Shown here one piece after another: positions 558-15,804 of a stretch of 22,302 nucleotides of DNA (the first letter of the stretch is position 1; the number at the start of each line of letters is the position of its first letter). Position numbers and translations under genes: made by a program. Under the pieces are notes generated by a model. It saw only the letters and a list, made by a program, of their open reading frames with translations, made no database searches and was not told the origin of the DNA. Source of the DNA: a virus; the IMG/VR virus record IMGVR_UViG_3300043395_000772, positions 1 through 22,302 of that record; one strand, written 5' to 3'.

Positions 558-701
558 TTACGGCTTCAGTCCTTGATGGCAGGCAGGGTGATTGTGATGC
601 GCCTCGGCGGCTTGATCACGACCGACGCTGATGCCGACGGCGTACATCATGAACAGCAGCGTCAAGGCTGCGCAGCGGTTGATCCAGCGATTGGTGACCA
701 T
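558..701 (-). CDS. 47-aa single-pass membrane protein, hypothetical
   Basis: A short ORF starting ATG at 701 and ending TAA at 558. The protein begins MVTNRWINRC, followed by a hydrophobic stretch (about residues 10-27, AALTLLFMMYAVGISVG) that could be one transmembrane helix, then a short His-rich tail (EAHHNHPACH). The positive N-terminus before the helix and the mildly acidic region after it suggest N-in orientation. It lies between the large terminase and the portal-like gene, where no other gene fits, and has its own promoter candidate 45 bp upstream. I do not recognise a family; His and Cys in the tail could bind metal, but that is speculation. The reality of the gene rests on promoter, position and composition. 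Confidence 0.55.
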   Translation of the reverse strand: MVTNRWINRCAALTLLFMMYAVGISVGRDQAAEAHHNHPACHQGLKP

Positions 702-745
702 GGTTGGGATGGTAGTGGTAGGGCGGCTTTGGCGGCCGTGCGCAC

Positions 746-774
746 AAGATACCAGCGTTTGCCGCCGTGGTCAA
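746..774 (-). promoter_or_regulatory. Sigma70-like promoter, cassette copy 1
   Basis: On the minus strand: -35 TTGACC (774-769), 17-bp spacer, -10 TATCTT (751-746). It overlaps the end of the large terminase gene and precedes the 47-aa membrane protein and then the portal gene. The element resembles the promoters at 9513 and 10722 through TTGACCAcGG and a spacer ending CTGG/TGG. An 8-bp palindrome GTGCGCAC sits just after the -10, about where transcription would start. Prediction by eye only. Confidence 0.5.
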
Positions 775-5429: not shown

Positions 5430-7920
5430 AGGCGGCTTCGAGGGGGATTTTGGTGGCTCGACTGTTACCGCCTGAACCTTTGAACCAAATAACGCCCACC
5501 TTCTCGGCACCAGGCAAACGCGCCAGCACGGTTGACCAGCAGTTGCTCCATGGCGTGTCCGAGAGGATGGCGGCAATGGCGTTGGCGGTGTTGGACACGC
5601 AAATAGCGCCCTGCTCAGCCTTGATGCCATTGCGTCCGAGGGTGGCCACTGCCAGCTCGGTTGTTACAACCATGTCATTGCCATGGTGCAACGCAAGATC
5701 TACAAGTTCGCCAATAGTTCGGGTGACTGTTTTATCACCTTCAACGCGGATTTGATGCTGCAGGATGCGCTGTAAACAGCGCTTTTCATCTGGTATCTCA
5801 ATCGACTGGGAGTAGGGTTCCCAGTTGTTCTGCTCAATCAATTGCCATGCCTGATCTCGGGTGACGACCTCGCTGGACTGCAAAGACCACGCGCCTGCTA
5901 ATAGCGTGCCGTATTGATCACCAAGCCGTTGGCTATCAAATGCCTCAGCGGCTGCACGAGTGAAAATGCGCACACTGGCGCGGATTACGGGTATCAACGC
6001 AATGGTCCGTGCCTGCAATCGCTGGCCAATCGCTTCAGATACATGCTTGTCAAGGTCGCGGTCCAAGGATTCCCAGTGCGCAATACGTTCAGCTTTTGGT
6101 AGCTCATTTGGATTGCGCAATGTGAGCTGAGCAAAGCGTGACTTATCAGCGCCTTGTTTAAGTGCCGTAGCAATCGACGACATCAGAAACATTGACCGGA
6201 TGGTATAACGCTGTGTGTCACCTTCAGGGCTGCCCTTAAGTGTATGCGCTTTGGACTCTGAGCTGGCAACCCGCGCCAGGCCGAGGATGGCCTGCATCCG
6301 CTGCTGATCCGTGCGTTCATTGGATTCGGCCTCGTCAAAGACCACCGGCAGGGCATCGGCTCGTAGGGCTTGCCGGATACCTGGTTCCGTGGTGTTGCCA
6401 GCCACGACCAAGCCCATGTCCCCTAGCAGCGGCGAGATGTAACGGTCAAGAATGGCGGACTTGCCGGAGCCGGCGCCTGCGGTAAGCCAAGCATGAGGAC
6501 GCCAGTCCAGCGCACCGCAGATCGGGGCGAGTGCTGCCCAGCCGGCCAGCAGCAGGCCAGATGCTGGGACCTCCCAATGGAAACGCTCGGCTAGCTCGGC
6601 CAGAACAAAGGCCTCATCATCGGCTAGCGGCTTGGCATCTGCTGGACCACGCAGACGTGCAAGGCGTTGATACAGGTAGGCGCTCCCAAGCACTCCAGCG
6701 CTGACATCACGCGAGTCGCCGTCAACGACCAGGCGATCACCAAGGTGCAGCACACTGACGCGCTTATCCCACCAAGCGCCACGGCCACGGATGCGGTCTG
6801 GACTGTAGACACCAACGGCGGCTTGGCGTTCAAACAAGCTGCTTGCTGCTGCTGTCCAGTTGACGCCAGTCTTGGATGGGTACAGGGTCTCCCAGTAACT
6901 AAGAGGCGCCAGTGATACCAGATTTGTCCCGGTGTGGCTGCTGCGTGACAAGCGGGTCACTTGACCAGTGCTGTGCGGCTGGTAGTAGAAGCTGTCATTG
7001 TCAAAGCCAAGGCAGGTGAAACAGCTATCAGCCTGCGGTATCGGATCGGGTTCCGGCAGCGGCTCGGCTAGTAAGGGCTCAGCCACAGGATCCGGCAGCT
7101 CAACGGGCGCTGAGCGGTTGGACATGAGATGCGCTGCAGCTTGAGCTGGCGACCAGTCCGCATCAGCCAGGTCCCATCCTTCAGGCGCACCTTCTGGCGG
7201 ATGGACAATGCGCACTTGTGCGGCACCAGCAGCAAGCAACCGTGGCGCTAGCTTTGCCATTGCCTCACGGCCTGGCATGTCCGCATCAGGCCATAACACG
7301 CAACGGCGACCAGTAACAGGAGACCAGTCGGCCTTGCCAATGGCTTGGCAACCTGACGCCCAGGTCAATACGGCATGGCCGGGAAACAATGCAGCGGCTG
7401 CATCGGCGGTCTTTTCGCCTTCGACGATCAGCAGTGGCAGGTTTGCATCACGACGCGCCCAGTAAAGGGGACGTGGTGACGGTGGTGCCTTGCGCCGCCA
7501 CGCCTCGCCGTCAAACCAAAGGGGGCGGATTTCTTTGCCGCCATCCGGCAAATTGCGGCGCAGTACATAAAAGGTGTCTGTGTACCGCCAGTGCGCATCC
7601 CAGCCCTTGAGAGGGGGTGCTGGTATTGGCTTGGCTAGGCCGAGATGCTGCTCAACCCGCTGCGCTGCTTCGGCAAAGCTTAAGCCCGTGCGACGCATCA
7701 GCATGTCCATGCCGCTGCCCGCTCCGCCGGTGCCGGCTTTGCCGCCGCACTTGTTGCAGAACCACGAGCCCGAGCCATCTTGGTCGTCAAAGCGGTAACG
7801 GTCCTTGCCACCACAAAGCGGGCACGGCTGGTGCTTGTCAGTGAGCTGCTCGGCGGTCAAGCCGCCAAGTTTCTGCAGCAGGTCTGGCCACCTGCCGCGT
7901 GCTGAGTCGAGGGTGCTCAT
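5428..7920 (-). CDS. Phage primase-helicase (zinc ribbon, TOPRIM and P-loop ATPase)
   Basis: 830 aa, three functional parts in order. (1) Zinc ribbon: CPLCGGKDRYRF with Cys33/Cys36 and WFCNKCGG with Cys55/Cys58, which reads template DNA in primases. (2) TOPRIM-like domain: LLIVEGEKTADAA (VEGEK 166-170) and LWPDADMPGREA (DAD 212-214), the metal site for primer synthesis. (3) C-terminal helicase/ATPase: Walker A TAGAGSGKS (482-488) and Walker B LPVVFDEAE (526-532), similar to the DUF927/superfamily 3-like ATPases of prophage primases. It initiates and unwinds DNA at the phage fork. The ATG overlaps the stop of the upstream RHH gene (ATGA). The stop lies at the edge of the repeat-rich region. 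Confidence 0.92.
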   Translation of the reverse strand: MSTLDSARGRWPDLLQKLGGLTAEQLTDKHQPCPLCGGKDRYRFDDQDGSGSWFCNKCGGKAGTGGAGSGMDMLMRRTGLSFAEAAQRVEQHLGLAKPIPAPPLKGWDAHWRYTDTFYVLRRNLPDGGKEIRPLWFDGEAWRRKAPPSPRPLYWARRDANLPLLIVEGEKTADAAAALFPGHAVLTWASGCQAIGKADWSPVTGRRCVLWPDADMPGREAMAKLAPRLLAAGAAQVRIVHPPEGAPEGWDLADADWSPAQAAAHLMSNRSAPVELPDPVAEPLLAEPLPEPDPIPQADSCFTCLGFDNDSFYYQPHSTGQVTRLSRSSHTGTNLVSLAPLSYWETLYPSKTGVNWTAAASSLFERQAAVGVYSPDRIRGRGAWWDKRVSVLHLGDRLVVDGDSRDVSAGVLGSAYLYQRLARLRGPADAKPLADDEAFVLAELAERFHWEVPASGLLLAGWAALAPICGALDWRPHAWLTAGAGSGKSAILDRYISPLLGDMGLVVAGNTTEPGIRQALRADALPVVFDEAESNERTDQQRMQAILGLARVASSESKAHTLKGSPEGDTQRYTIRSMFLMSSIATALKQGADKSRFAQLTLRNPNELPKAERIAHWESLDRDLDKHVSEAIGQRLQARTIALIPVIRASVRIFTRAAAEAFDSQRLGDQYGTLLAGAWSLQSSEVVTRDQAWQLIEQNNWEPYSQSIEIPDEKRCLQRILQHQIRVEGDKTVTRTIGELVDLALHHGNDMVVTTELAVATLGRNGIKAEQGAICVSNTANAIAAILSDTPWSNCWSTVLARLPGAEKVGVIWFKGSGGNSRATKIPLEAA

Positions 7921-8081
7921 GGTTCGCGGCGTCCGGTAGCGGGCAGTAGACCACGGCTGTGCAGCCTCATGGCCTCTTCGACAACAAGACGTATGACAGC
8001 GCTACGGGACAGGCCAGCGGTCCGACGGGAATCCAGCCACTTCACCTGCTCGGGCGTGAACAAAACCGAGATGGGATGCAC
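7917..8081 (-). CDS. Small ribbon-helix-helix protein upstream of the primase
   Basis: Too short for usual length cut-offs (54 aa from the GTG at 8081). The sequence HPISVLFTPEQVKWLDSRR then TAGLSRSAVIRLVVEEAMR is a textbook RHH pattern: a beta strand, helix, GLSRSAVIR turn, helix. These proteins bind DNA as dimers and commonly repress their own operon. The TGA overlaps the primase ATG (ATGA), so the two are co-translated. The frame stays open up to about 8145 but offers no ATG; GTG 8081 is the best codon, with CTG upstream as an outside possibility. It is a second RHH factor in the same operon as the one at 4910-5182; their sequences are only distantly alike. Confidence 0.75.
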   Translation of the reverse strand: MHPISVLFTPEQVKWLDSRRTAGLSRSAVIRLVVEEAMRLHSRGLLPATGRREP

Positions 8082-8146
8082 GTTTTCGGCGTGGGGCTTG
8101 CGCAGCTTAGCGACTTTGGCTAAGGTTGCAAGGCCGCCAGCGCGTC

Positions 8147-9502
8147 ATGAACCTCCGCCCTTACCAGCAGCAGCTCATCACTGACATCCGACTGCAATAC
8201 CAGCTAGGCAAGCGCACGGTGCTGGCAGTGCTGCCGACCGGCGGCGGCAAGACGGTGTGCTTCAGCTACATCGCCCAAGCCGCCGCCCGCAAAGGCAACC
8301 GCGTCTGCATCCTGGTGCATAGGGCTGAGCTGCTGGATCAGGCCAGCCGCAGCCTCACGGCTATGGGCGTCACCCATGGCCGCATTGCAGCAGGCCGCAG
8401 CATGGACCTGAGCCATGTGGTGCAGGTGGCCTCAGTCCAGACCCTTGCCCGCAGGCTGCACAAGCTGCCGGGCGAGTTCTTCCAGCTCCTGGTTGTGGAC
8501 GAAGCCCATCACACCAATGCCGGGCAGTGGTCAACGGTGCTGCAGCATTTCCACAAGGCGCATGTGTTGGGTGTGACGGCAACGCCATGCCGTGGCGACG
8601 GCCGTGGCCTTGGTGACCACTATGAGGTCATGGTGCAAGGACCCAGCGCCGCATGGCTGACCGATAACGGCTACCTCGCCAGTGCCCGCGTGCTGGCACC
8701 ACCGGGTTTTGACAGCACCGGGCTGCGTAAGCGCATGGGCGACTTTGACACCAAGGACGCCGAGCAGCGCGTCGGCACCATCATGGGCGACTGCGTAAGC
8801 CATTACCGCAAGCACCTAACAGGCCAGACGGCTATTGCGTTCTGCTGCTCAGTGACGCATGCCGAGGCAGTGGCGGCGCTGTTTGTGAGCCAGGGAATCC
8901 CAGCCGCCAGCATTGACGGCACCATGACCGCCGACCAGCGCAGGGACCTGCTGACGGCACTAGGAACAGGCCGCATCAAGGTGCTGACCAGTTGCAGCCT
9001 GATTGGTGAAGGCGTGGACGTGCCAAGCGTCGGCGGGTGCATCCTGCTGCGGCCAACGCAGTCCGTCAGCCTGCACCTGCAGATGATCGGTCGATGCCTA
9101 AGGCCAAGCCACGGCAAAACCGCCGTGGTGCTGGATCATGTGGGCAATACGCTGCGGCTAGGCCACCACCTTGAGGACCGCGACTGGACGCTAGACGGTG
9201 TGCGCAAACGCGACCGCGAGCAAGCACCTAGCGTCAAGGTATGCCCGGTGTGCTTCACCACCAGCATGAGCGCCACGCAGGTGTGCCCAGGCTGCGGGCA
9301 TGTGTTTGCACCGCAGGAGACCAGAGAGCTGAAGGTGGTTGAGGGTGAGCTGCAGGAGTTGACCACACGTGAGCGCAAACGCGAGCAGGGCAGTGCTCAG
9401 TCCCTCGATGACCTCCGCAAGCTGGCGCAGCAGCGCGGCTACAAACGCGGCTGGGCAGAGCGCGTCTACCAGGCTAGGTTGGCCAAGCGTTACGGATTGT
9501 GA
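8147..9502 (+). CDS. SF2 DEAD/DEAH-box helicase with C-terminal zinc finger
   Basis: 451 aa from the ATG at 8147 (MNLRPYQQQLITDIR). Motifs: Q-like RPYQ near the start, Walker A LPTGGGKTV (31-36), DEAH box VVDEAHH (118-121), motif III GVTATPCRGD (144-150), then the second RecA domain with GEGVDVPSVGGCILLRPTQS and IGRCLRPS (motifs V and VI). The end has four cysteines, VCPVC and VCPGCGHVF, a zinc ribbon as in RadD/UvrB-like phage helicases. It probably remodels branched DNA during replication or recombination. An in-frame TTG at 8126 could extend it, but the ATG gives the expected N-terminus. It is the first gene of the plus-strand block, divergent from the small RHH gene; no clear promoter was seen in the 65 bp between. 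Confidence 0.92.
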   Translation: MNLRPYQQQLITDIRLQYQLGKRTVLAVLPTGGGKTVCFSYIAQAAARKGNRVCILVHRAELLDQASRSLTAMGVTHGRIAAGRSMDLSHVVQVASVQTLARRLHKLPGEFFQLLVVDEAHHTNAGQWSTVLQHFHKAHVLGVTATPCRGDGRGLGDHYEVMVQGPSAAWLTDNGYLASARVLAPPGFDSTGLRKRMGDFDTKDAEQRVGTIMGDCVSHYRKHLTGQTAIAFCCSVTHAEAVAALFVSQGIPAASIDGTMTADQRRDLLTALGTGRIKVLTSCSLIGEGVDVPSVGGCILLRPTQSVSLHLQMIGRCLRPSHGKTAVVLDHVGNTLRLGHHLEDRDWTLDGVRKRDREQAPSVKVCPVCFTTSMSATQVCPGCGHVFAPQETRELKVVEGELQELTTRERKREQGSAQSLDDLRKLAQQRGYKRGWAERVYQARLAKRYGL

Positions 9503-9512
9503 CAGACCACGC

Positions 9513-9540
9513 TTGACCACGGCCAACCATGCTGTATGAT
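9513..9540 (+). promoter_or_regulatory. Sigma70-like promoter, cassette copy 2
   Basis: -35 TTGACC (9513-9518), 16-bp spacer, -10 TATGAT (9535-9540). The DNA is built from ten-base units, GACCACGCTT, GACCACGGCC and AACCATGCTG (9506-9535), so GACCA-type half sites recur once per helical turn across the -35 and spacer. It lies in the only gap between the helicase and the 60-aa gene, and probably drives the 60-aa protein, methyltransferase-like protein and VRR-NUC genes. Shares motif and leader with the copy at 10722. Confidence 0.65.
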
Positions 9541-9566
9541 TTGGGGGTCCCAAACGGATTCCACCC
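9540..9566 (+). promoter_or_regulatory. 5' leader hairpin and conserved pre-start motif
   Basis: TTTGGG (9540-9545) and CCCAAA (9549-9554) form a 6-bp stem with a 3-base loop at the expected transcript start, so it may be an operator or an mRNA 5' cap hairpin. ATTCCACCC (9558-9566) touches the GTG start; exactly the same nine bases precede the ATG at 10792. No purine-rich Shine-Dalgarno is present. Confidence 0.5.
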
Positions 9567-9749
9567 GTGACCCTTCAAACCGTGCTTCAACTCAAAGCCG
9601 CCGAAAAGACTGCTAAAGATGCCTTCTACGCCGCTGCTGGTGCCGCTGGCAGCAAGATGACAGCCAAGCAAGTCAAGCTGCAAGCTGCCATGATCGCCGC
9701 CACCAAAGCCCGCCAAGCTGCCATGACTGCCTACGCCGCCAGCCTTTGA
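9567..9749 (+). CDS. 60-aa Ala/Lys-rich helical protein
   Basis: Starts GTG at 9567, TGA at 9747-9749. Composition is extreme: about one third alanine with regularly spaced Lys (KAAEKTAKDAFYAAAGAAG, then KMTAKQVKLQAAMIAATKAR). It should form one or two long amphipathic helices, without a true membrane segment. No family recognised; the Lys/Ala pattern recalls short histone-like or coiled-coil proteins, but that is only a resemblance. It has its own promoter and shares its stop with the start of the next gene (TGATG). As the first gene after the promoter it is probably well expressed. Confidence 0.65.
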   Translation: MTLQTVLQLKAAEKTAKDAFYAAAGAAGSKMTAKQVKLQAAMIAATKARQAAMTAYAASL

Positions 9750-10342
9750 TGCGTGTCTTGGTTGCCTGTGAATACAGTGCCCGTGTCCGTGATGCCTTTC
9801 GGCGTCGCGGGCATTTTGCTTTTAGCTGCGATCTGCTGCCATGTGAAGGCGACGCGCAGTGGCACCTGCAGCAGCCGGTCGAGGAGGTGTTGGACGATGG
9901 CTGGGATCTGATGATCGCCCATCCGCCATGCACGCATCTGGCGGTATCCGGCAGCAGGCATTTCCACCGCAAACGGCGTGAGCAGGCAGAAGCGCTCGAC
10001 TTTGTGAGGCTGCTTATGGCCGCGCCGATCGACCGCTGGTGCATCGAGAATCCCGTCAGCATCATTAGCAGCGCTATCAGGCCGCCATCCCAGACGATCC
10101 AGCCATGGCAGTTCGGCCATGGCGAGACGAAGGCCACATGTCTGTGGCTTAAGAACTTGCCAAAACTCAAGCCAACCAAGATTGTTGATGGTCGTGAAGC
10201 TCGCGTGCATTTGATGCCACCTAGCCCAGATCGCTGGAAAGAGCGCAGCCGCACTTATCAAGGCATAGCGGACGCTATGGCGCAGCAGTGGGGGGCAGTT
10301 ACGCTGCCACCACCGATGCGGCAGTTATCCCTTGTCATCTGA
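9749..10342 (+). CDS. DNA cytosine methyltransferase-like protein
   Basis: 197 aa, starting at the ATG at 9749 (MRVLVACEYSARVRDAFRRR). The N-terminus is a SAM-binding Rossmann-like start (VLVACEYSARV, then FSCDLLP). LMIAHPPCTHLAVSG (HPPC at 58-61) and RWCIENPVS (ENP at 100-102) resemble motifs IV (PC) and VI (ENV) of C5-cytosine methyltransferases. Similar short phage proteins are usually annotated as DNA methyltransferase. It is much shorter than a full enzyme (about 300+ aa) and no separate target-recognition domain is visible, so activity is uncertain. It overlaps the 60-aa gene by one base and the VRR-NUC gene by 11 bases. Confidence 0.75.
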   Translation: MRVLVACEYSARVRDAFRRRGHFAFSCDLLPCEGDAQWHLQQPVEEVLDDGWDLMIAHPPCTHLAVSGSRHFHRKRREQAEALDFVRLLMAAPIDRWCIENPVSIISSAIRPPSQTIQPWQFGHGETKATCLWLKNLPKLKPTKIVDGREARVHLMPPSPDRWKERSRTYQGIADAMAQQWGAVTLPPPMRQLSLVI

Positions 10343-10700
10343 ACAACAGATCCAGCAACAGATCCGAATTGCCTGCGGTGCTGGTGACACCAGGCTGTTC
10401 CGCAACAACACCGGCACGCTCAAGGACCAGCATGGCCGCCCGGTGCAGTTTGGGTTGTGCAAAGGCAGCGCTGACCTGATCGGCTGGCGCACGGTCACCG
10501 TAACGCCTGAGATGGTCGGCAGTCAGATGGCTGTTTTCCTCAGCATTGAAGTCAAGACGCCCACCGGCAGGCTGCGGCCAGAGCAGCAGCAGTGGCTGGA
10601 TGCGGTGCAAGCTGCTGGCGGGATCGCTGGTGTAGCGCGGTCTGTGGACGATGCAAGGGCTCTGGTTTGCGACAAAACCGATACATCAGTGCGCAACTGA
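10332..10700 (+). CDS. VRR-NUC domain nuclease
   Basis: 122 aa from TTG at 10332. The N-terminus SEQQIQQQIRIACGAGDT then RLFRNNTGTLKDQHGRPVQF matches the start of small phage VRR-NUC proteins, which supports this unusual codon; no ATG is available. The catalytic PD-(D/E)XK core is CKGSADLIGW (Asp48) and FLSIEVKTPTGRLRPEQ (Glu73, Lys75), and the end AGGIAGVARSVDDARALV is also typical. Such proteins act as structure-specific endonucleases, possibly on Holliday junctions or replication forks, and are often encoded near a phage helicase, as here. It overlaps the end of the methyltransferase-like gene by 11 bases. Confidence 0.88.
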   Translation: MSSEQQIQQQIRIACGAGDTRLFRNNTGTLKDQHGRPVQFGLCKGSADLIGWRTVTVTPEMVGSQMAVFLSIEVKTPTGRLRPEQQQWLDAVQAAGGIAGVARSVDDARALVCDKTDTSVRN

Positions 10701-10721
10701 TCAGCGGTTGTTGCAACAGGG

Positions 10722-10750
10722 TTGACCAAGGCCGACCATGGTGGTATAGT
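10722..10750 (+). promoter_or_regulatory. Sigma70-like promoter, cassette copy 3
   Basis: -35 TTGACC (10722-10727), 17-bp spacer, -10 TATAGT (10745-10750). GACCA occurs at 10725, 10735 and 10753; the first two are exactly ten bases apart, as in copy 2. It lies in the 91-bp gap after the VRR-NUC gene and precedes the 59-aa membrane-HTH gene. Confidence 0.7.
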
Positions 10751-10758
10751 GTGACCAC

Positions 10759-10791
10759 GCAGGCAACCGGCCTGCACTGCAAATTCCACCC
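10759..10791 (+). promoter_or_regulatory. 5' leader hairpin and conserved pre-start motif
   Basis: GCAGGC (10759-10764) and GCCTGC (10770-10775) form a 6-bp stem with a 5-base loop that begins close to the expected transcript start. ATTCCACCC (10783-10791) is directly followed by the ATG, identical to the leader at 9558-9566. Confidence 0.5.
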
Positions 10792-10971
10792 ATGACAACC
10801 ACACTGACCCTGATCCTTGCCCTGTTGCTGTTGCCGTTGCTGGTGCTGCTATGGGCAACGGAGTCAACCGAGCAACGCGCCAAGCGGCTGCGTGGCTATG
10901 GCTGGTCGCAGCGCCGTATTGCGGAGCACATGCACATCAGCCGCTACCGCGTCCGCCTAGCGCTCGCATAG
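10792..10971 (+). CDS. 59-aa membrane-anchored putative HTH protein
   Basis: ATG at 10792, TAG at 10969-10971. Residues 4-22 are strongly hydrophobic (LTLILALLLLPLLVLLWA), one transmembrane helix or an uncleaved signal anchor. After a short acidic linker (TESTEQR), the C-terminal part is basic: RLRGYGWSQRRIAEHMHISR then YRVRLALA. The spacing (GWSQRRIAEHMHISRYRV) fits a helix-turn-helix with recognition helix HISRYRVRLAL, similar to HTH segments in Tn3-resolvase or sigma-like proteins. That would place a DNA-binding unit at the membrane. I know no described family with this layout. It has its own promoter, leader and downstream hairpin, so it may be a monocistronic gene. Confidence 0.6.
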   Translation: MTTTLTLILALLLLPLLVLLWATESTEQRAKRLRGYGWSQRRIAEHMHISRYRVRLALA

Positions 10972-10976
10972 AAAAC

Positions 10977-10999
10977 GACGGGGGCGCCACACCCCCGTC
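10977..10999 (+). terminator. Possible hairpin terminator
   Basis: GACGGGGG (10977-10984) and CCCCCGTC (10992-10999) form a perfect 8-bp GC-rich stem with a 7-base loop, directly after the stop of the 59-aa gene. There is no T-tract after it (ATCCCTACC), so termination may be partial, or the hairpin may stabilise RNA ends. Confidence 0.45.
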
Positions 11000-11023
11000 A
11001 TCCCTACCAAAGCCATCCTACCC

Positions 11024-11212
11024 ATGACTTCAGACGACTTCTGGACATTCCAGACCGCCAAGCAGCACGGCGGCGGGTTTATCTCACGCCTTGCTGATGC
11101 AGGGCTCGTTGCTGACCCCAGCAACCGTCAGGTCCTGCTGCAAGCATTCCCGCAACTGCTGCATTGCTTTGGACCGCAGACCCTGATCCACCGCCAACTG
11201 AGGCAGAAATGA
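11024..11212 (+). CDS. 62-aa small phage protein upstream of the exonuclease
   Basis: ATG at 11024 (MTSDDFWTFQTAKQHGGGF then ISRLADAGLVADPSNRQ). The pattern, with an aromatic N-terminus, ISRLADA-type helix and AFPQLL near the end, resembles short proteins I have seen in phage recombination clusters, but I cannot name a function. Its TGA overlaps the ATG of the exonuclease gene (ATGA). The bases before its start, CATCCTACCC, resemble the ATTCCACCC context of two other genes; there is no Shine-Dalgarno. Probably part of the recombination operon. Confidence 0.7.
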   Translation: MTSDDFWTFQTAKQHGGGFISRLADAGLVADPSNRQVLLQAFPQLLHCFGPQTLIHRQLRQK

Positions 11213-11997
11213 CGATCTCTAACGCTGACTACCACGCCGACCCAGCCGTCAGCGCCAGTCATCTGAAGGCGGTAATGCAATCGCCTTACCACTACTGGAG
11301 CCGGTACGTTGACCCCAACCGCAAGCCGGTTGAGCCGACCGCTGCGATGAAGCTGGGCAGCCTTGCCCACTGCGCCATCCTCGAACCAGAGGAGCTGCTG
11401 AACCGCTACGGCATCTGCGCACCGCGCAACACCAAGGCCGGTAAGGATCAAGCTGCGGCCATGGAGGCCGAGGGCATCGAGGTAGTCACAAGCAGCGACA
11501 TGGCACTGGCCATGGGCATGAGCGCTGCAGTCCAGGCGCACCCTGCAGCAGCGGCATTGCTGGCTGACGGCAAGGCCGAGCAGTCCTTCTGGTGGACCGA
11601 CCCTGCTACAGGACTGCGCTGCAAGTGCCGCCCGGACTGGTACCAAGGCAGCACCATCGTGGACATCAAGACCACCACCGATGCCAGCCCGCAGGCATTC
11701 GCCCGTAGTGTGGCCACCTTCGGCTACCACATCCAAGCGGCGCATTACCTCGCTGGCCTGCACGGCGCTGAGCGGTTTGTGTTCGTGGCGGTCGAGAAGA
11801 CATACCCGCATGGGGTCGGGGTTTATGAACTTGATACCGAAGCCCTTGCATTAGGGCGGACCATGCGGGACAATGGCATGGACGTGATCGCTGCCTGCCA
11901 TGCGGTTGACGTATGGCCGGGTTATGGCGACACGATCATTCAGACCATCAGCCTGCCTAAGTGGGCGACAAATCCCATCGAAACTGAAACCTTCTAA
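11209..11997 (+). CDS. RecE-like PD-(D/E)XK exonuclease (DUF3799 type)
   Basis: 262 aa from ATG at 11209; a longer reading from an upstream TTG/ATG would overlap the previous gene. The N-terminus [20 protein letters not shown] then [10 protein letters not shown] is typical of exonuclease VIII/DUF3799-like phage nucleases. Catalytic core: [10 protein letters not shown] (Asp143), IVDIKTT (Asp152, Lys154) and a following QAAHYLAG helix. It degrades a 5' strand at duplex ends, giving the ssDNA for the annealase encoded next; the two genes overlap as TAATG. This nuclease-annealase pair is the phage recombination engine. Confidence 0.88.
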
Positions 11998-12749
11998 TGT
12001 CAACAGCAATCACCACCTGGACCCCCGACCAGGTCCAACTGATCAGCAGCACCATCGCACCAGGCTGCACTAACGACGAGCTGCGGCTGTTTGCCTATGC
12101 CTGCCAGCGCACCGGTCTTGATCCGTTTAGCAAGCAGATTTACGCCATCAAGCGTGGCGGCAAGATGACCATCCAAGCCGGCATTGATGGCCTCCGTGCC
12201 ATTGCCGAGCGCACTGGCCAGCTTGACGGCAGCCAGACCGAATGGTGTGGTGAGGAAGGCGACTGGCGTGATGTGTGGCTTGCATCCAAACCGCCGGCAG
12301 CAGCCAAGACCACCATCTGGCGCAAAGGCAGCCAGCATCCGTTTGTTGGTGTTGCCCGCTTTGCGGACTACAACGCTGGCCAAGGGTTGTGGTCCAAGAT
12401 GCCCGCCGCGATGATCGCCAAATGCTCTGAGGCGCTGGCATTGCGTAAGGCATTCCCTGCCGACATGTCCGGGGTGTACACCACCGACGAGATGGACCAG
12501 GCCAGTGAGCCCGTAACGGTCACCACTGAGGCCACACCTGCACTGCCTGCTGTCAAGGCCAAGGACACGAGCAAGACCTTCACTGCTGGTGCCGCTGCTA
12601 TCGCCAAGGCCAAAACCCTGCAGGACCTTGAGGACCTGCAACCGCGTATGGCAAAGCGGCTAGAAGACGGCGACTTGACGCAAGAGCAGCACGACAAGTT
12701 GCTGCAGCAGATGCTTGAAAAGGAGGCTGAACTTGTATCTGACGACTGA
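11997..12749 (+). CDS. bet: Single-strand annealing recombinase, Bet family
   Basis: 250 aa. The stretches [40 protein letters not shown] and [20 protein letters not shown] are hallmark sequences of phage Bet (lambda Red beta type, RecT superfamily) proteins, which anneal complementary ssDNA produced by the exonuclease. The middle [20 protein letters not shown] is the conserved C-terminal part of the core. The last about 80 residues (from [10 protein letters not shown]) are variable, Lys/Glu-rich and may contact SSB. The start overlaps the exonuclease stop as TAATG and the end overlaps the following Xis-like gene by 17 bases. Confidence 0.93.
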
Positions 12750-12936
12750 ACAACTAGCAGCACGCTGGGGCTTGAAGCCAAGCAGCATTAAATCCCAGCG
12801 GCTGCGCGGCCAAGGACCGTCTTACTACACGGTCCCACGGTTCGGTTTGCCACTAGGCGAATCGCGGGTCAGGTATCCCATAGCGGATGTGCTGGCCTTT
12901 GAAGAATCCAATTCCATTACCCCCATCAATCCATGA
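12733..12936 (+). CDS. Small excisionase/MerR-like HTH protein
   Basis: 67 aa starting with TTG at 12733. This start is decided by a perfect AGGAGG at 12721-12726, six bases upstream, the strongest ribosome site in the window; a TTG at 12715 would lengthen the protein but puts AGGAGG inside the gene. The sequence [20 protein letters not shown] followed by [17 protein letters not shown] and [15 protein letters not shown] is the winged-HTH layout of excisionase/AlpA-type proteins (HTH_17). It may direct excision with the integrase at 19001-19855 or regulate transcription. The stop overlaps the SSB start (ATGA). Confidence 0.8.
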
Positions 12937-13280
12937 GCCTTTATGCAACCGGTGTTGTTCGTATTATTAGCGAACCGCAAATTAAGTTTTTTGATTCTGG
13001 CACTTGTGTTTGCAACTTCGGTGGCGGCATCAGCGAAGGCAAAGACAAGGAAGGCAATTACATCAATAATGCAATTGATGTAGAAGTCTGGGGCAAGGGC
13101 GGCGAGATGATTGCCGACAACTGCAAAAAAGGTGACAGCATCATGGTGACTGGTGCCATCCGCCGCCAGGACTGGACTGACAAGGAGTCCGGCGCCAAGC
13201 GCAGCAAGCATGTGCTGAACGTGCAGCGGTTTGAGTACCTGCCACGGGCTAAGGCAACTGAGTCAGAGGCTGCATTCTGA
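12933..13280 (+). CDS. ssb: Single-stranded DNA-binding protein
   Basis: 115 aa OB-fold protein. Typical SSB features are ATGVVRIISEPQIKFF, VCNFGGGI, the VEVWGKGGEMIADNCKKGDS segment and VTGAIRRQDWTDKESGAK. It coats ssDNA at replication forks and supplies substrate for the annealase. It is shorter than host SSB and lacks a long linker; the end, ESEAAF, keeps a terminal Phe after acidic residues, perhaps a degenerate form of the DDDIPF-type interaction tip. Start and stop overlap neighbours (ATGA and TGATG). Confidence 0.92.
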   Translation: MSLYATGVVRIISEPQIKFFDSGTCVCNFGGGISEGKDKEGNYINNAIDVEVWGKGGEMIADNCKKGDSIMVTGAIRRQDWTDKESGAKRSKHVLNVQRFEYLPRAKATESEAAF

Positions 13281-13423
13281 TGAGCGACATCAAGCAAGAC
13301 AACGAGCGGCAGGAGCTGCTTGAGCGCTTATACCACGAGGATGGCCGGGATAAGCCCGACCACCCAATGCACGCACTCTACACGGGGCTTTATGAACAGC
13401 ACATCAATCAAGGCAGCGTTTGA
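13280..13423 (+). CDS. 47-aa charged hypothetical protein
   Basis: ATG at 13280 overlaps the SSB stop (TGATG); TGA at 13421-13423. The product opens MSDIKQDNERQELLERLY and continues HEDGRDKPDHPMHALYTG; it is acidic/polar, probably helical, with no membrane segment. I know similar short His/Asp-rich phage proteins only as hypotheticals. It overlaps the next small gene by 32 bases in another frame. Support comes from the coupled start and a plausible amino acid pattern. Confidence 0.6.
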   Translation: MSDIKQDNERQELLERLYHEDGRDKPDHPMHALYTGLYEQHINQGSV

Positions 13424-13535
13424 GGCATGGTGGCGTGACAGCTATGGGGTGCCTCCAGGCACCCATGCCGTCATGACCCACGTCGCCTTTGCTGAGTACA
13501 TTCTCAAGCTGATGGAGCTAAAGCAGGATGACTGA
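13392..13535 (+). CDS. 47-aa hypothetical phage protein
   Basis: I choose the ATG at 13392 (MNSTSIKAAFEAWWRDSYGV), not an earlier in-frame codon, because the extension would read through the previous gene in another frame. The core FEAWWRDSYGVPPGTHAVMT followed by HVAFAEYILKLME resembles short phage proteins with an FEAWW motif and an AVMTH-FAEYIL tail, known to me as hypothetical. The end overlaps the DUF3310 gene by 8 bases. Confidence 0.65.
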   Translation: MNSTSIKAAFEAWWRDSYGVPPGTHAVMTHVAFAEYILKLMELKQDD

Positions 13536-13731
13536 CATCGTCAACCACCCGCCGCACTACACACAAGGCGGCATTGAGTGCATCGAGGCAATCCAGGCAG
13601 CACTGACCCCGGAGGAGTTCCGGGGTTACTGCAAAGGCAATGTGCTTAAGTATGTCTGGCGTGAAAAGCACAAGCAAGGCACTGAATCCTTGCGCAAAGC
13701 CAATTGGTACATGCAGTGGCTGATCGGTTAA
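13528..13731 (+). CDS. DUF3310 family protein
   Basis: 67 aa. NHPPHYTQGGIECIEAIQAA, then FRGYCKGNVLKYVWREKHK and SLRKANWYMQWLI, is the full DUF3310 signature (NHPxHY, GN-KYVWR). This phage family is often labelled nucleotide kinase-like, but no kinase motif is visible and its biochemical role is unknown. It forms part of the tightly packed small-gene string and lies before the dCTP deaminase family gene, which would be consistent with nucleotide metabolism. Confidence 0.9.
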   Translation: MTDIVNHPPHYTQGGIECIEAIQAALTPEEFRGYCKGNVLKYVWREKHKQGTESLRKANWYMQWLIG

Positions 13732-13952
13732 ACAAAGGCCGCAACTTCACGGTCAACATCCGCATGAGCCGTGAAGAGATCGAAGCTGCTCGCAAGCTAG
13801 GCGACGGCAACATTAGCATGGGCTTCCGTCATGCCATTAGGTATGCCTGCTGGAAAGACATGCGCCCGATCAAACTCAGCACCATGCTGCGCAGTGCAGC
13901 AGTTATGGCACAAGATCTAGAAAATGCCCGCGATTCAAGTTCAATGCCCTAA
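13716..13952 (+). CDS. 78-aa hypothetical protein, possibly RHH-like
   Basis: Start taken at GTG 13716 (a TTG at 13704 is also possible; an internal ATG lies at 13764). The central part NFTVNIRMSREEIEAARKLG then DGNISMGFRHAIRYACW has the strand-helix-turn-helix rhythm of ribbon-helix-helix proteins (basic/hydrophobic strand TVNIRMS, helix EEIEAARKLG, turn, helix SMGFRHAIRYA), so a DNA-binding role is possible. The remainder is polar. It overlaps DUF3310 at its start and the zinc-ribbon gene by 29 bases at its end. Confidence 0.6.
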   Translation: MADRLNKGRNFTVNIRMSREEIEAARKLGDGNISMGFRHAIRYACWKDMRPIKLSTMLRSAAVMAQDLENARDSSSMP

Positions 13953-14136
13953 CTGCAACGGGTACAGCACTTATGTGATCGCTACCAACAGCACCGACAA
14001 AGGCATCATCCGGCGTCGTAAATGCACCAGTTGCAACTGCCGTTGGTACACAATCCAGCCACATGAGCTGCAGGTTTCAGCCCATGACATCATCACAGTC
14101 AACAAAAAACCACAACTGAGACATGATCCTCTGTGA
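13924..14136 (+). CDS. 70-aa zinc-ribbon protein (NrdR-like finger)
   Basis: ATG at 13924. Four cysteines in two pairs: QCPNCNGYSTYVI and RRRKCTSCNCRWYTIQ. The layout, with a strand of polar residues and RRRKC between the pairs, recalls the N-terminal zinc ribbon of NrdR, the repressor of ribonucleotide reductase genes, but the ATP-cone domain is missing. Similar solo zinc ribbons are frequent in phages and may bind DNA or other proteins. The end overlaps the dCTP deaminase family gene by 14 bases. Confidence 0.7.
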   Translation: MPAIQVQCPNCNGYSTYVIATNSTDKGIIRRRKCTSCNCRWYTIQPHELQVSAHDIITVNKKPQLRHDPL

Positions 14137-14674
14137 CACCGAGATCCATGACCTGATCCAGCAGGGCATGGTGCATGACTATCAGCCGGAACTGATCAAT
14201 CCTGCCAGCCTTGACCTGCGACTTGGCAATCTGATCATGCTTGAGTCGGTGGAATCACACCAGATGATTCCGCTGTCGATTAAGGACTACACCGCTGAAC
14301 ATCCGTATCAGTTGGTGCCAGGGCAGTTCATCCTGGCGCAGACGATCGAAACCTTTGTCATGCCTGAGGACGTGGCCGGGCTGTTTTTCCTCAAGTCCAG
14401 TCGCGCCCGTGAAGGTTACGAAAACCTGCACGCCGGGTACGCCGACCCCGGTTGGCATGGCAGTGCGCTAACGCTAGAGCTGAAGAATGCCCGCCAGTTG
14501 CAGCCGCTGCCGATCTACCCAGGACTCAAGATCGGTCAGATGGTGTTCTTCCGCATGAGCCAGCGGCCAGCACTTAGCTACGCCCTGACCGGCAGTTACA
14601 ACAACGACCAACTTGTGTCAGCCTCCAAGCAGTTCCTCAGCAGCGGCCAAATGCCACGGCTCGACGCTGCATGA
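14123..14674 (+). CDS. dcd: dCTP deaminase / dUTPase-superfamily protein
   Basis: 183 aa, typical length. The N-terminal NPASLDLRLGNLIMLES, the motif GLFFLKSSRAREGYENLHAG (compare KSSLAR in Dcd) and YADPGWHGSALTLELKN (D-PGW-G with catalytic Glu in TLEL) place it in the dCTP deaminase family. The enzyme makes dUTP from dCTP (or dUMP directly in the bifunctional form), supplying thymidylate precursors during phage replication. It closes the small-gene string; a possible oppositely oriented gene overlaps its last 57 bases. Which of the two activities it has cannot be told from sequence here. Confidence 0.88.
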   Translation: MILCDTEIHDLIQQGMVHDYQPELINPASLDLRLGNLIMLESVESHQMIPLSIKDYTAEHPYQLVPGQFILAQTIETFVMPEDVAGLFFLKSSRAREGYENLHAGYADPGWHGSALTLELKNARQLQPLPIYPGLKIGQMVFFRMSQRPALSYALTGSYNNDQLVSASKQFLSSGQMPRLDAA

Positions 14675-14854
14675 ACTAGCAGCCTCACGTACCAGCCAGT
14701 TGATTTGTGATCGCTGGCTGGCTTCTTGCTCTGCCAGCAGCAGTGCATATTCCAGCAGCGCATTCCAGTCTTGATGCTCGTGTAGCTGACGCAACACCTG
14801 GGCATTGGCAGCGCCGTGAAATTGTGCTTCTATCGTGTGAACCAATGGATTCAT
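14618..14854 (-). CDS. 78-aa acidic helical protein encoded against the sigma block
   Basis: A reverse-strand frame fills the gap between the dCTP deaminase family gene and the sigma gene. The product starts MNPLVHTIEAQFHGAANAQV and continues RQLHEHQDWNALLEYALL, LAEQEASQRSQINWLVREAA; it is predicted helical and soluble, with believable composition and no low-complexity signs. The ATG at 14854 lies just two bases from the sigma ATG at 14856, so the two genes are divergent with adjacent starts (an upstream ATG at 14857 even overlaps it). A start at 14872 is also open. I do not recognise a family. It could be a conserved cyanobacterial-phage small protein, or an artefact; the 57-base overlap with the deaminase gene lowers confidence. 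Confidence 0.55.
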   Translation of the reverse strand: MNPLVHTIEAQFHGAANAQVLRQLHEHQDWNALLEYALLLAEQEASQRSQINWLVREAASSCSVEPWHLAAAEELLGG

Positions 14855-14855
14855 C

Positions 14856-15746
14856 ATGTCGGACTCTATCAAAGATTATCTCAACAGTATCGCCAAATAT
14901 CCATTGTTGACACCGCAGCAAGAGATACAACTTGGCAGGCGGGTCGCAAGGCTTAAAGAGTTGCAGCAACTGGAAAGGCCTTTAACAAAGGATGAACAGC
15001 GCGAAATGCGCAGCGGTGAACGCGCCCGGCAGCGGTTTATTCAGTCCAACTTACAGCTTGTCGTGCATATCGCCCGCAAATACGACAAACGGCAGAACAA
15101 GACCCTTGAGCTGATGGACCTGATCCAAGAGGGCAATATCGGCCTATCCCGCGCCGTGGACTTATTCGACCCCACCAGGGGTTACAAGTTTTCGACCTAT
15201 GCCTACTGGTGGATCCGGCAAGGCATTACCAGGGCACTGATCAGTTATGACGCCATGATCCGGCTGCCGATTGGTGTGCATGAGATGCTGTACAAAGTCA
15301 ACCGCACCATCCAAGACCTCGGTCATCAATTGGGCGAGGCGCCTAGCACCAGCCAAGTAGCACAGCATTTGGACATGGATCCCAAGGACCTATCAATGCT
15401 GCTGCGGCAAAGCTACCGCGTCACCAGCTTGGATCAGTTCATTTCAGACTCTGAAAGCAACACTATTGCAGAAACAATTGCAGATCCTGCATCCAATCAA
15501 GAAGACGTTGCAATCCGTCAAGATATACAAAATGTAATGGAATGCTTCGCAAAATACCTTGACGAGACAACGCAAACAGTCCTTAAAGCACGGATGATCT
15601 GCCAGCCGATTACCTGGTCAGAACTGGAGCGCATGACAGGCATTAGCAAGACACGATTGCACAGCATTGAGCAGCGTGGCATCATGCGCCTCCGTATGCT
15701 GATGAGCAATCCACTGGCAGGCACGCCACTTGGAACCAACGATTGA
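14856..15746 (+). CDS. RNA polymerase sigma-70 factor (RpoD/group 2-like), phage-encoded
   Basis: 296 aa. Region 1.2: DSIKDYLNSIAKYPLLTPQQ (3-22). Region 2: RFIQSNLQLVVHIARKYDKR and LELMDLIQEGNIGLSRAVDL, with the -10-recognition part GYKFSTYAYWWIRQGITRAL (109-128). Region 3 follows (RLPIGVHEMLYKVNRTIQDL), and region 4 has ITWSELERMTGISKTRLHSI, the HTH that reads -35 DNA. The protein is complete and looks like cyanobacterial group 2 sigma factors. It sits last in the plus-strand block, where it could redirect host RNA polymerase to late phage genes; the TTGACC/TATnnT promoters at 746, 9513 and 10722 are candidate targets, though plain sigma70 would fit as well. There is no Shine-Dalgarno. The start is adjacent to the start of the oppositely oriented 78-aa gene. 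Confidence 0.92.
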   Translation: MSDSIKDYLNSIAKYPLLTPQQEIQLGRRVARLKELQQLERPLTKDEQREMRSGERARQRFIQSNLQLVVHIARKYDKRQNKTLELMDLIQEGNIGLSRAVDLFDPTRGYKFSTYAYWWIRQGITRALISYDAMIRLPIGVHEMLYKVNRTIQDLGHQLGEAPSTSQVAQHLDMDPKDLSMLLRQSYRVTSLDQFISDSESNTIAETIADPASNQEDVAIRQDIQNVMECFAKYLDETTQTVLKARMICQPITWSELERMTGISKTRLHSIEQRGIMRLRMLMSNPLAGTPLGTND

Positions 15747-15804
15747 AAAACACGGTGATGTATGGCGAGTTTGTCTAAACGGCATGTGCAAAGATCACGC
15801 GCAA

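Follow-up and report, generated by a model that had tools for sequence, protein, structure and literature searches.

A promoter and predicted 5'-end hairpin cassette in front of variable small genes in uncultured cyanophage relatives of Synechococcus phages S-H1 and S-LBS1

Among T4-type phages, small units of promoter and stem-loop, the PeSL (promoter early stem-loop) cassettes, are repeated between early accessory genes and have been proposed to shuffle gene modules (Arbiol et al., 2010; Comeau et al., 2014; as cited in PMC4503421). In cluster K mycobacteriophages, some genes have SAS/ESAS repeats immediately ahead of their start codons, and these repeats are kept with gene families across genomes; the SAS is a fixed 13-bp word present in 11-19 copies per genome, and about half of the SAS/ESAS have an inverted repeat upstream (PMC3203893). 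Stem-loops at the 5' terminus stabilise bacterial mRNAs such as those of ompA and papA (Emory et al., 1992 and others, as cited in PMC3997798). Finally, morons are added phage genes with their own promoter. The cassette described here shares traits with each of these. As reported for PeSL in the citing paper, a small unit of promoter and stem-loop is found between variable early genes and is common to unrelated genes (28 families, with several leader types per family). PeSL are presented there as promoter-terminator motifs of T4-like myoviruses, in which an early promoter is coupled to a stem-loop terminator, whereas the stem-loop described here is part of the 5' leader that follows the promoter, lacks a T-tract and belongs to siphophage-like cyanophages. 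Like SAS/ESAS, the cassette stands just ahead of the start codons of certain genes, but it is a promoter with 10-bp direct repeats whose leaders have many sequences and the same structure, it occurs in 1-3 copies per genome, and the 13-bp GGGATAGGAGCCC word was not found at the translation starts. Its stem-loop begins close to the predicted 5' end of the mRNA, as in the ompA/papA stabilisers; those cases, in the account cited, are single host genes, whereas here promoter and hairpin form one unit, with a putative stabilising role, before many unrelated phage genes. As far as these sources describe the known systems, the cassette differs from PeSL and SAS/ESAS in order, sequence, hairpin position and host. 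No earlier description of it was found in the literature searched, which is not proof of absence.

The stretch of DNA analysed, hereafter the window, comprises the whole of its IMG/VR record (22,302 bp). This record carries genes for terminase, DNA polymerase processivity factor, primase, helicase, methyltransferase, a VRR-NUC/Holliday-junction-type nuclease, exonuclease VIII, RecT, SSB, dCTP deaminase, a sigma factor, an endolysin, an integrase and a tail-fibre-like protein. The closest isolates are Synechococcus phages S-H1 (MK105819), in which the genes for helicase, methylases, VRR-NUC homologue, exonuclease, RecT and SSB are similarly ordered, and S-LBS1 (MG271909; PMC6157547), with which the window phage has an integrase in common. 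From these nearest isolates and the gene content, we infer a Synechococcus/Cyanobium-like host. A search for the cassette promoter found it in neither S-H1 nor S-LBS1, and the strict motif was present in 0 contigs among 84,980 bacterial and archaeal species genomes. A terminase query of host genomes matched a single contig, apparently mis-binned, so that no host or prophage can be named. One locus of our set (L277) is a contig of a Gammaproteobacteria MAG (MED810) whose terminase is 76% identical to that of the window phage; it is probably a mis-binned cyanophage contig.

The pattern TTGAC-N16-19-TAnnnT occurs only three times in the whole window, at 9513 (+), 10722 (+) and 774 (-), precisely where the original prediction had placed three related promoter-like elements (Table 1). 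Under weight matrices derived solely from relatives, with the window phage left out of the model, all three copies scored above the maximum of 20 dinucleotide shuffles (4.5 bits for the 16-spacer model and 13.1 bits for the 17-spacer model). The hexamers at 9513 and 10722 match TTGACA/TATAAT at 10 of 12 positions, with the 16-18 bp spacing of sigma-70-type promoters. Enrichment of the motif in related phages, the check that had been proposed, was also observed: TTGACCA-N14-17-TAnnnT was counted 67 times in 161 loci fetched by protein similarity, where permuted -35 words averaged 4.2. The sequence ATTCCACCC precedes the start codon in copies 2 and 3, as first described; copy 1 has CATCCCAACC there.

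Table 1. Cassette copies and associated genes in the window.
Feature	Position	Strand	Remarks
Copy 1 gene, 47-aa membrane protein	558..701	-	Homologue inside recombination operon in most relatives
Copy 1 leader	724..739	-	Predicted +1 A739; hairpin CGGC-cgccaaa-GCCG
Copy 1 promoter	746..774	-	TTGACC, 17-nt spacer, TATCTT; 20.3 bits
Copy 2 insert (promoter, leader, gene)	9503..9745	+	Between helicase and methylase
Copy 2 promoter	9513..9540	+	-35 TTGACC, 16-nt spacer, -10 TATGAT; 33.2 bits
Copy 2 leader	9547..9559	+	Predicted +1 G9547; RNA hairpin GTCC-CAAAC-GGAT, optionally extended by G run
Copy 2 gene, 60 aa	9567..9749	+	GTG start; without family match; another leader type in relatives
Copy 3 promoter	10722..10750	+	TTGACC, 17-nt spacer, TG ahead of TATAGT; 41.9 bits
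Copy 3 leader	10757..10775	+	Predicted +1 A10757; hairpin GCAGGC-aaccg-GCCTGC (10759-10775)
59-aa gene	10792..10971	+	Membrane segment plus helix-turn-helix; family in 66 of 95 relatives at this site
p62, conserved 62-aa gene	11024..11212	+	Read from copy 3, ahead of exonuclease, RecT, SSB
Exonuclease VIII, RecT and SSB genes	11164..13280	+	Core of copy 3 operon
Phage sigma factor gene	14856..15746	+	Regions 1.2, 2, 3 and degenerate 4; downstream of copy 3, same strand

In IMG/VR relatives, the same cassette of about 90 bp was found, composed of promoter, purine start, hairpin, short spacer and small gene. Its strict motif form was present in 114 IMG/VR stretches, from which 110 unique sites were read; a few of these, in unrelated phages, are chance matches. 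The promoter pattern is GTGAC-N9-nAnGG, with the nAnGG words at 10-bp steps around TTGAC, followed by TAGGAT. The distance from the -35 TTGAC, kept in nearly all relatives, to the -10 (TAGGAT/TATRNT) is 16-17 bp. Relative to the first T of TTGAC, GTGAC is located at -14 in relatives (9499-9503 for copy 2) and the nAnGG direct repeat starts at -5, +5 and +15, in steps of ten bases; its first two words flank TTGAC, and its third runs into a GGTG just 5' of the -10. In copy 3, CANGG is found at 10717, 10727 and 10737. With only the -35 and -10 required, CANGG was present at +5 in 45 and at +15 in 52 of 137 sites (all-offset mean, 1.7), and promoters located via the leader alone still had nAnGG, with 1.0-1.9 bits at its G positions. 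Thus, the repeats are no artefact of the search. In variant promoters such as TTGACAGGGG-N5-TAGGGTGTAGGAT, the repeat persists in an altered form, with TAGGG at -5 and +15, and at the helicase site of some relatives the TTGAC word is lost (TTGCGC) while CAYGG-N5-CATGG or close variants are kept. As the genomes are related, part of the spacer conservation could come from recent common descent or recombination rather than from binding. An inverted repeat in the spacer (ACCATG-N6-CATGGT) suited only some of the promoters, whereas the direct repeat fits both spacer classes. In three distant relatives (L017, L023, L311), a palindromic spacer replaces the direct repeats (TTGACACTGGGAGCAGTGCCTGTAGGAT). 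A second promoter is present in five loci (L108, L110, L112, L114, L258), some 200 bp ahead of the main cassette; one example, TTGACCAYGGTTGACCACGGTGGTARTAT, is a near-perfect TTGACCAYGG tandem. This second promoter is followed by a conserved stretch of about 100 nt with repeated CAYAAGCCGGATG and without a clear gene, possibly a small RNA.

The position of +1 was predicted from -10 spacing and purine preference: of 85 unique leaders, 82 have a purine seven bases 3' of the -10. Relative to this predicted start, a predicted hairpin begins at +1 to +4 in 71 of the 85, that is, where a 5'-terminal stem-loop is expected; starts at +2 to +5 were found in 72% of leaders versus 7.7% of shuffled leaders. 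The hairpins have 4-7 pairs, include the first few leader bases and are followed by a short unpaired stretch and the start codon. Their stems are distinct (GGAGGC/GCUUCC, GCAGG/CCUGC, GCCGG/CCGGC, CGGCC/GGCCG, GUCGCCA/UGGCGGC and others), the loops are often GNRA (GAGA, GCGA), and the sequences before the start codon are of CCACCC or CCGAGAACC types. Pairing was judged per leader with shuffles and on a small set of stems, an alignment of all leaders being too gappy for pair counts. Ten distinct stems presented 15 two-sided changes with pairing kept, compared with 4.0 in shuffles and 1-4 with a slid partner; the arms were picked from predicted hairpins, so that their 100% pairing is by construction. 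With an exact 24-nt hairpin as sole query, 39 distinct contexts were recovered, with the promoter at the same distance and a start codon nearly always 14 nt downstream. Type A leaders, the shortest (23-27 nt) and including that of copy 2, folded no better than shuffles, and 5'-end protection is therefore doubtful for them. No Rfam match was obtained at the leaders. In the window, the inverted repeats first noted at the transcript starts are all present as DNA: TTTGGG/CCCAAA at 9540-9554, GCAGGC/GCCTGC at 10759-10775 and GTGCGCAC at 738-745. The copy 2 repeat overlaps the -10, and the RNA hairpin there is a different one (Table 1); likewise, the RNA hairpin of copy 1 overlaps the end of the GTGCGCAC palindrome.

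Among 95 unique relatives holding both the VRR-NUC and the exonuclease genes, nearly all have the promoter between these two genes. It is followed by 0-3 variable small genes, a 59-64 aa protein, sometimes a 41-aa membrane protein, p62, exonuclease, RecT and SSB. Copy 3 is this conserved recombination-operon promoter with variable small genes inserted behind it. Hence, the original prediction that each promoter drives a tiny gene stands for the copies at 9513 and 774 and has to be revised for the one at 10722, which heads the operon in nearly all relatives. Of the small genes that follow the promoter, the most constant is the one for the 59-64 aa protein (10792-10971 in the window; L165, L186 and others), which has a membrane segment at its N terminus and, at its C terminus, a helix-turn-helix with Pfam matches below threshold (Sigma70_r4/HTH_23/HTH_38). 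This protein could be a candidate for the missing regulator. Between the 59-aa gene and p62, at 10979-11001, lies a strong GC hairpin (GACGGGGG-cgccaca-CCCCCGTC) without T-tract, and the p62 start is also preceded by CCTACCC. A protein of 104-134 aa recurs in the variable region upstream of the main cassette (L182, L201, L203 and others); its match to a DPBB-like domain (lytic transglycosylase/expansin type) is just below the Pfam cut-off.

Copies 1 and 2 look like moron-like additions. At the helicase/methylase junction, seven relatives have an empty site where the two genes overlap by 4 or 7 nt, while six records (the window and five others) have 243-274 bp filled with a cassette and a small gene; other small genes occur at this junction in L134/L167, L255 and L186. 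The junction thus combines an own promoter, an insertion between core genes and absence in relatives, as is known for morons. The promoter of copy 1 is located 2 nt after the stop codon of the terminase large subunit, and its 47-aa protein is of the same family as the 41-aa operon protein of relatives. Members of this family follow terL in five loci, of which three have kept an intact promoter, and 42 hits lie in the operon beside the exonuclease and p62; in the few contigs spanning both sites, it is present at one site or at neither. As with morons, a small gene and its promoter sit between co-oriented core genes for which empty sites are known. Unlike morons, the cassette shows no terminator, and its main copy is an operon promoter carrying cargo behind it. 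No T-tract terminator was observed on the + strand just after 9749 or 10971, so the small genes do not form the closed transcription units typical of classical morons.

At least 28 unrelated small protein families (median, 61 aa) use the cassette. Seven of the 13 multi-member families are found with two or more leader types, and one leader type serves 13 families. Promoter, hairpin and genes are shuffled between uncultured cyanophages related to S-H1 and S-LBS1. The three small genes of the window had no PHROG match, and Pfam gave only sub-threshold helix-turn-helix matches for the 59-aa protein; cargo families of the relatives were likewise sub-threshold or without assignment. Judged by their sequences, the three families are coding and loosely constrained, with median pN/pS of 0.38-0.65 versus 0.16 for p62. 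The proposal of a common regulon of small phage proteins is borne out in so far as the promoter-leader elements are related and many more copies exist in relatives; the co-regulation itself we infer.

The reading that we favour, and hold to be probable, is that a clade of cyanophages uses and shuffles a compact expression cassette, with a host-read promoter, a 5'-end hairpin and accessory genes swapped behind them. Host RNA polymerase with its housekeeping sigma would read the cassette early in infection. A phage or host DNA-binding protein, lying on one helix face over the nAnGG repeats, would turn the promoter up or down; that some protein other than sigma reads these repeats is probable. 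Protection of the mRNA 5' end is the likeliest role of the hairpin, whose position and structure suggest a shield against 5'-end-sensing decay by RNase E. Cyanobacterial hosts possess RNase E. The host enzyme is reported to be raised during infection by cyanophage P-SSP7 (review, PMC10989914). The near-identical 50-90 bp of the cassette could serve as recombination homology, plausibly for the phage's own exonuclease/RecT pair, and homologous recombination over it would swap accessory genes behind a working promoter. The main copy stands at the head of the recombination operon in nearly every relative, and extra copies travel with small genes into gene junctions, after the helicase and after the terminase.

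Whether the phage sigma or a host sigma reads the promoter had been left undecided, and our analyses narrow this to the host as the likelier of the two. The residues R584, E585 and R588 of RpoD contact the -35 element. In the phage sigmas, their equivalents are replaced and the R-E-x-x-R of RpoD/RpoS is missing: the region 4.2 helix reads SKTRLHSIE, SKTALYDIY, SKSKLQDLE or SRARMCEIQ among phages that share the promoter (TRERVRQIQ in RpoS). In a regulon of the phage sigma, the promoter element should change with the recognition helix, whereas here the helix varies and TTGAC stays constant. Because the -35 helix is altered and variable while the promoter remains the same, host sigma-70 is likelier to be the reader, and the phage sigma probably serves other, later promoters. 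That the cassette is instead the regulon of the phage-encoded sigma seems unlikely to us, even though the sigma gene is present in 31 of 33 long relatives and S-H1 lacks both the promoter and a detectable sigma gene. S-LBS1 carries a sigma (36% identical) and has no such promoter, and with its gene located downstream of copy 3 on the same strand, the window sigma would have to start its own synthesis.

Doubts of another kind concern the hairpin and the promoter likeness itself. Placed immediately after an early-type promoter at the head of a long operon, the hairpin could be a cis-acting antitermination or attenuation signal, similar to the put RNAs of phage HK022, instead of a stability element. 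A put-like element requires a conserved sequence, yet stems and loops vary freely here with pairing kept, and the leaders lack Rfam matches, which makes this role quite improbable. Even less probable is that the inverted repeats are DNA operators for a repressor at the start site: the start regions of copies 1 and 2 are indeed covered by short, perfect DNA palindromes, but the repeats are wholly different between leader types, whose common trait is pairing at a fixed distance from +1, and a common repressor would need a common sequence, which is found in the upstream nAnGG repeats. We give almost no credence to ordinary, unrelated sigma-70 promoters that look alike by chance or through the general consensus. 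A generic sigma-70 scan of 7900-15800 was indeed not enriched (5 matches versus 3.1 expected) and alone would have missed the cassette; however, conservation extends far past both hexamers, in many genomes, at a fixed distance to hairpin and start codon. Chance similarity of the three sites was ruled out by the shuffle scores, the permuted -35 words and the nAnGG words at leader-located promoters.

For the favoured host-read and hairpin-capped cassette, the 42-bp promoter signature followed by a hairpin at about +3 provides a simple rule for finding small, fast-changing genes of uncultured cyanophages, which are usually missed by annotation. Dozens of natural 5'-end hairpins, differing in sequence and placed behind one promoter, also make it directly testable whether phage mRNAs in cyanobacteria resist RNase E by design. 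Tentatively, and with less confidence than in the cassette as such, we suggest a general "expression slot", in which an early promoter, regulated by its own activator or repressor on the three 10-bp-phased nAnGG repeats, and a 5'-protecting hairpin would express a changing series of small host-takeover or counter-defence genes exchanged by the phage's own recombinase. If this is true, the cassette would be a sequence handle for host-takeover and counter-defence genes in uncultured cyanophages.
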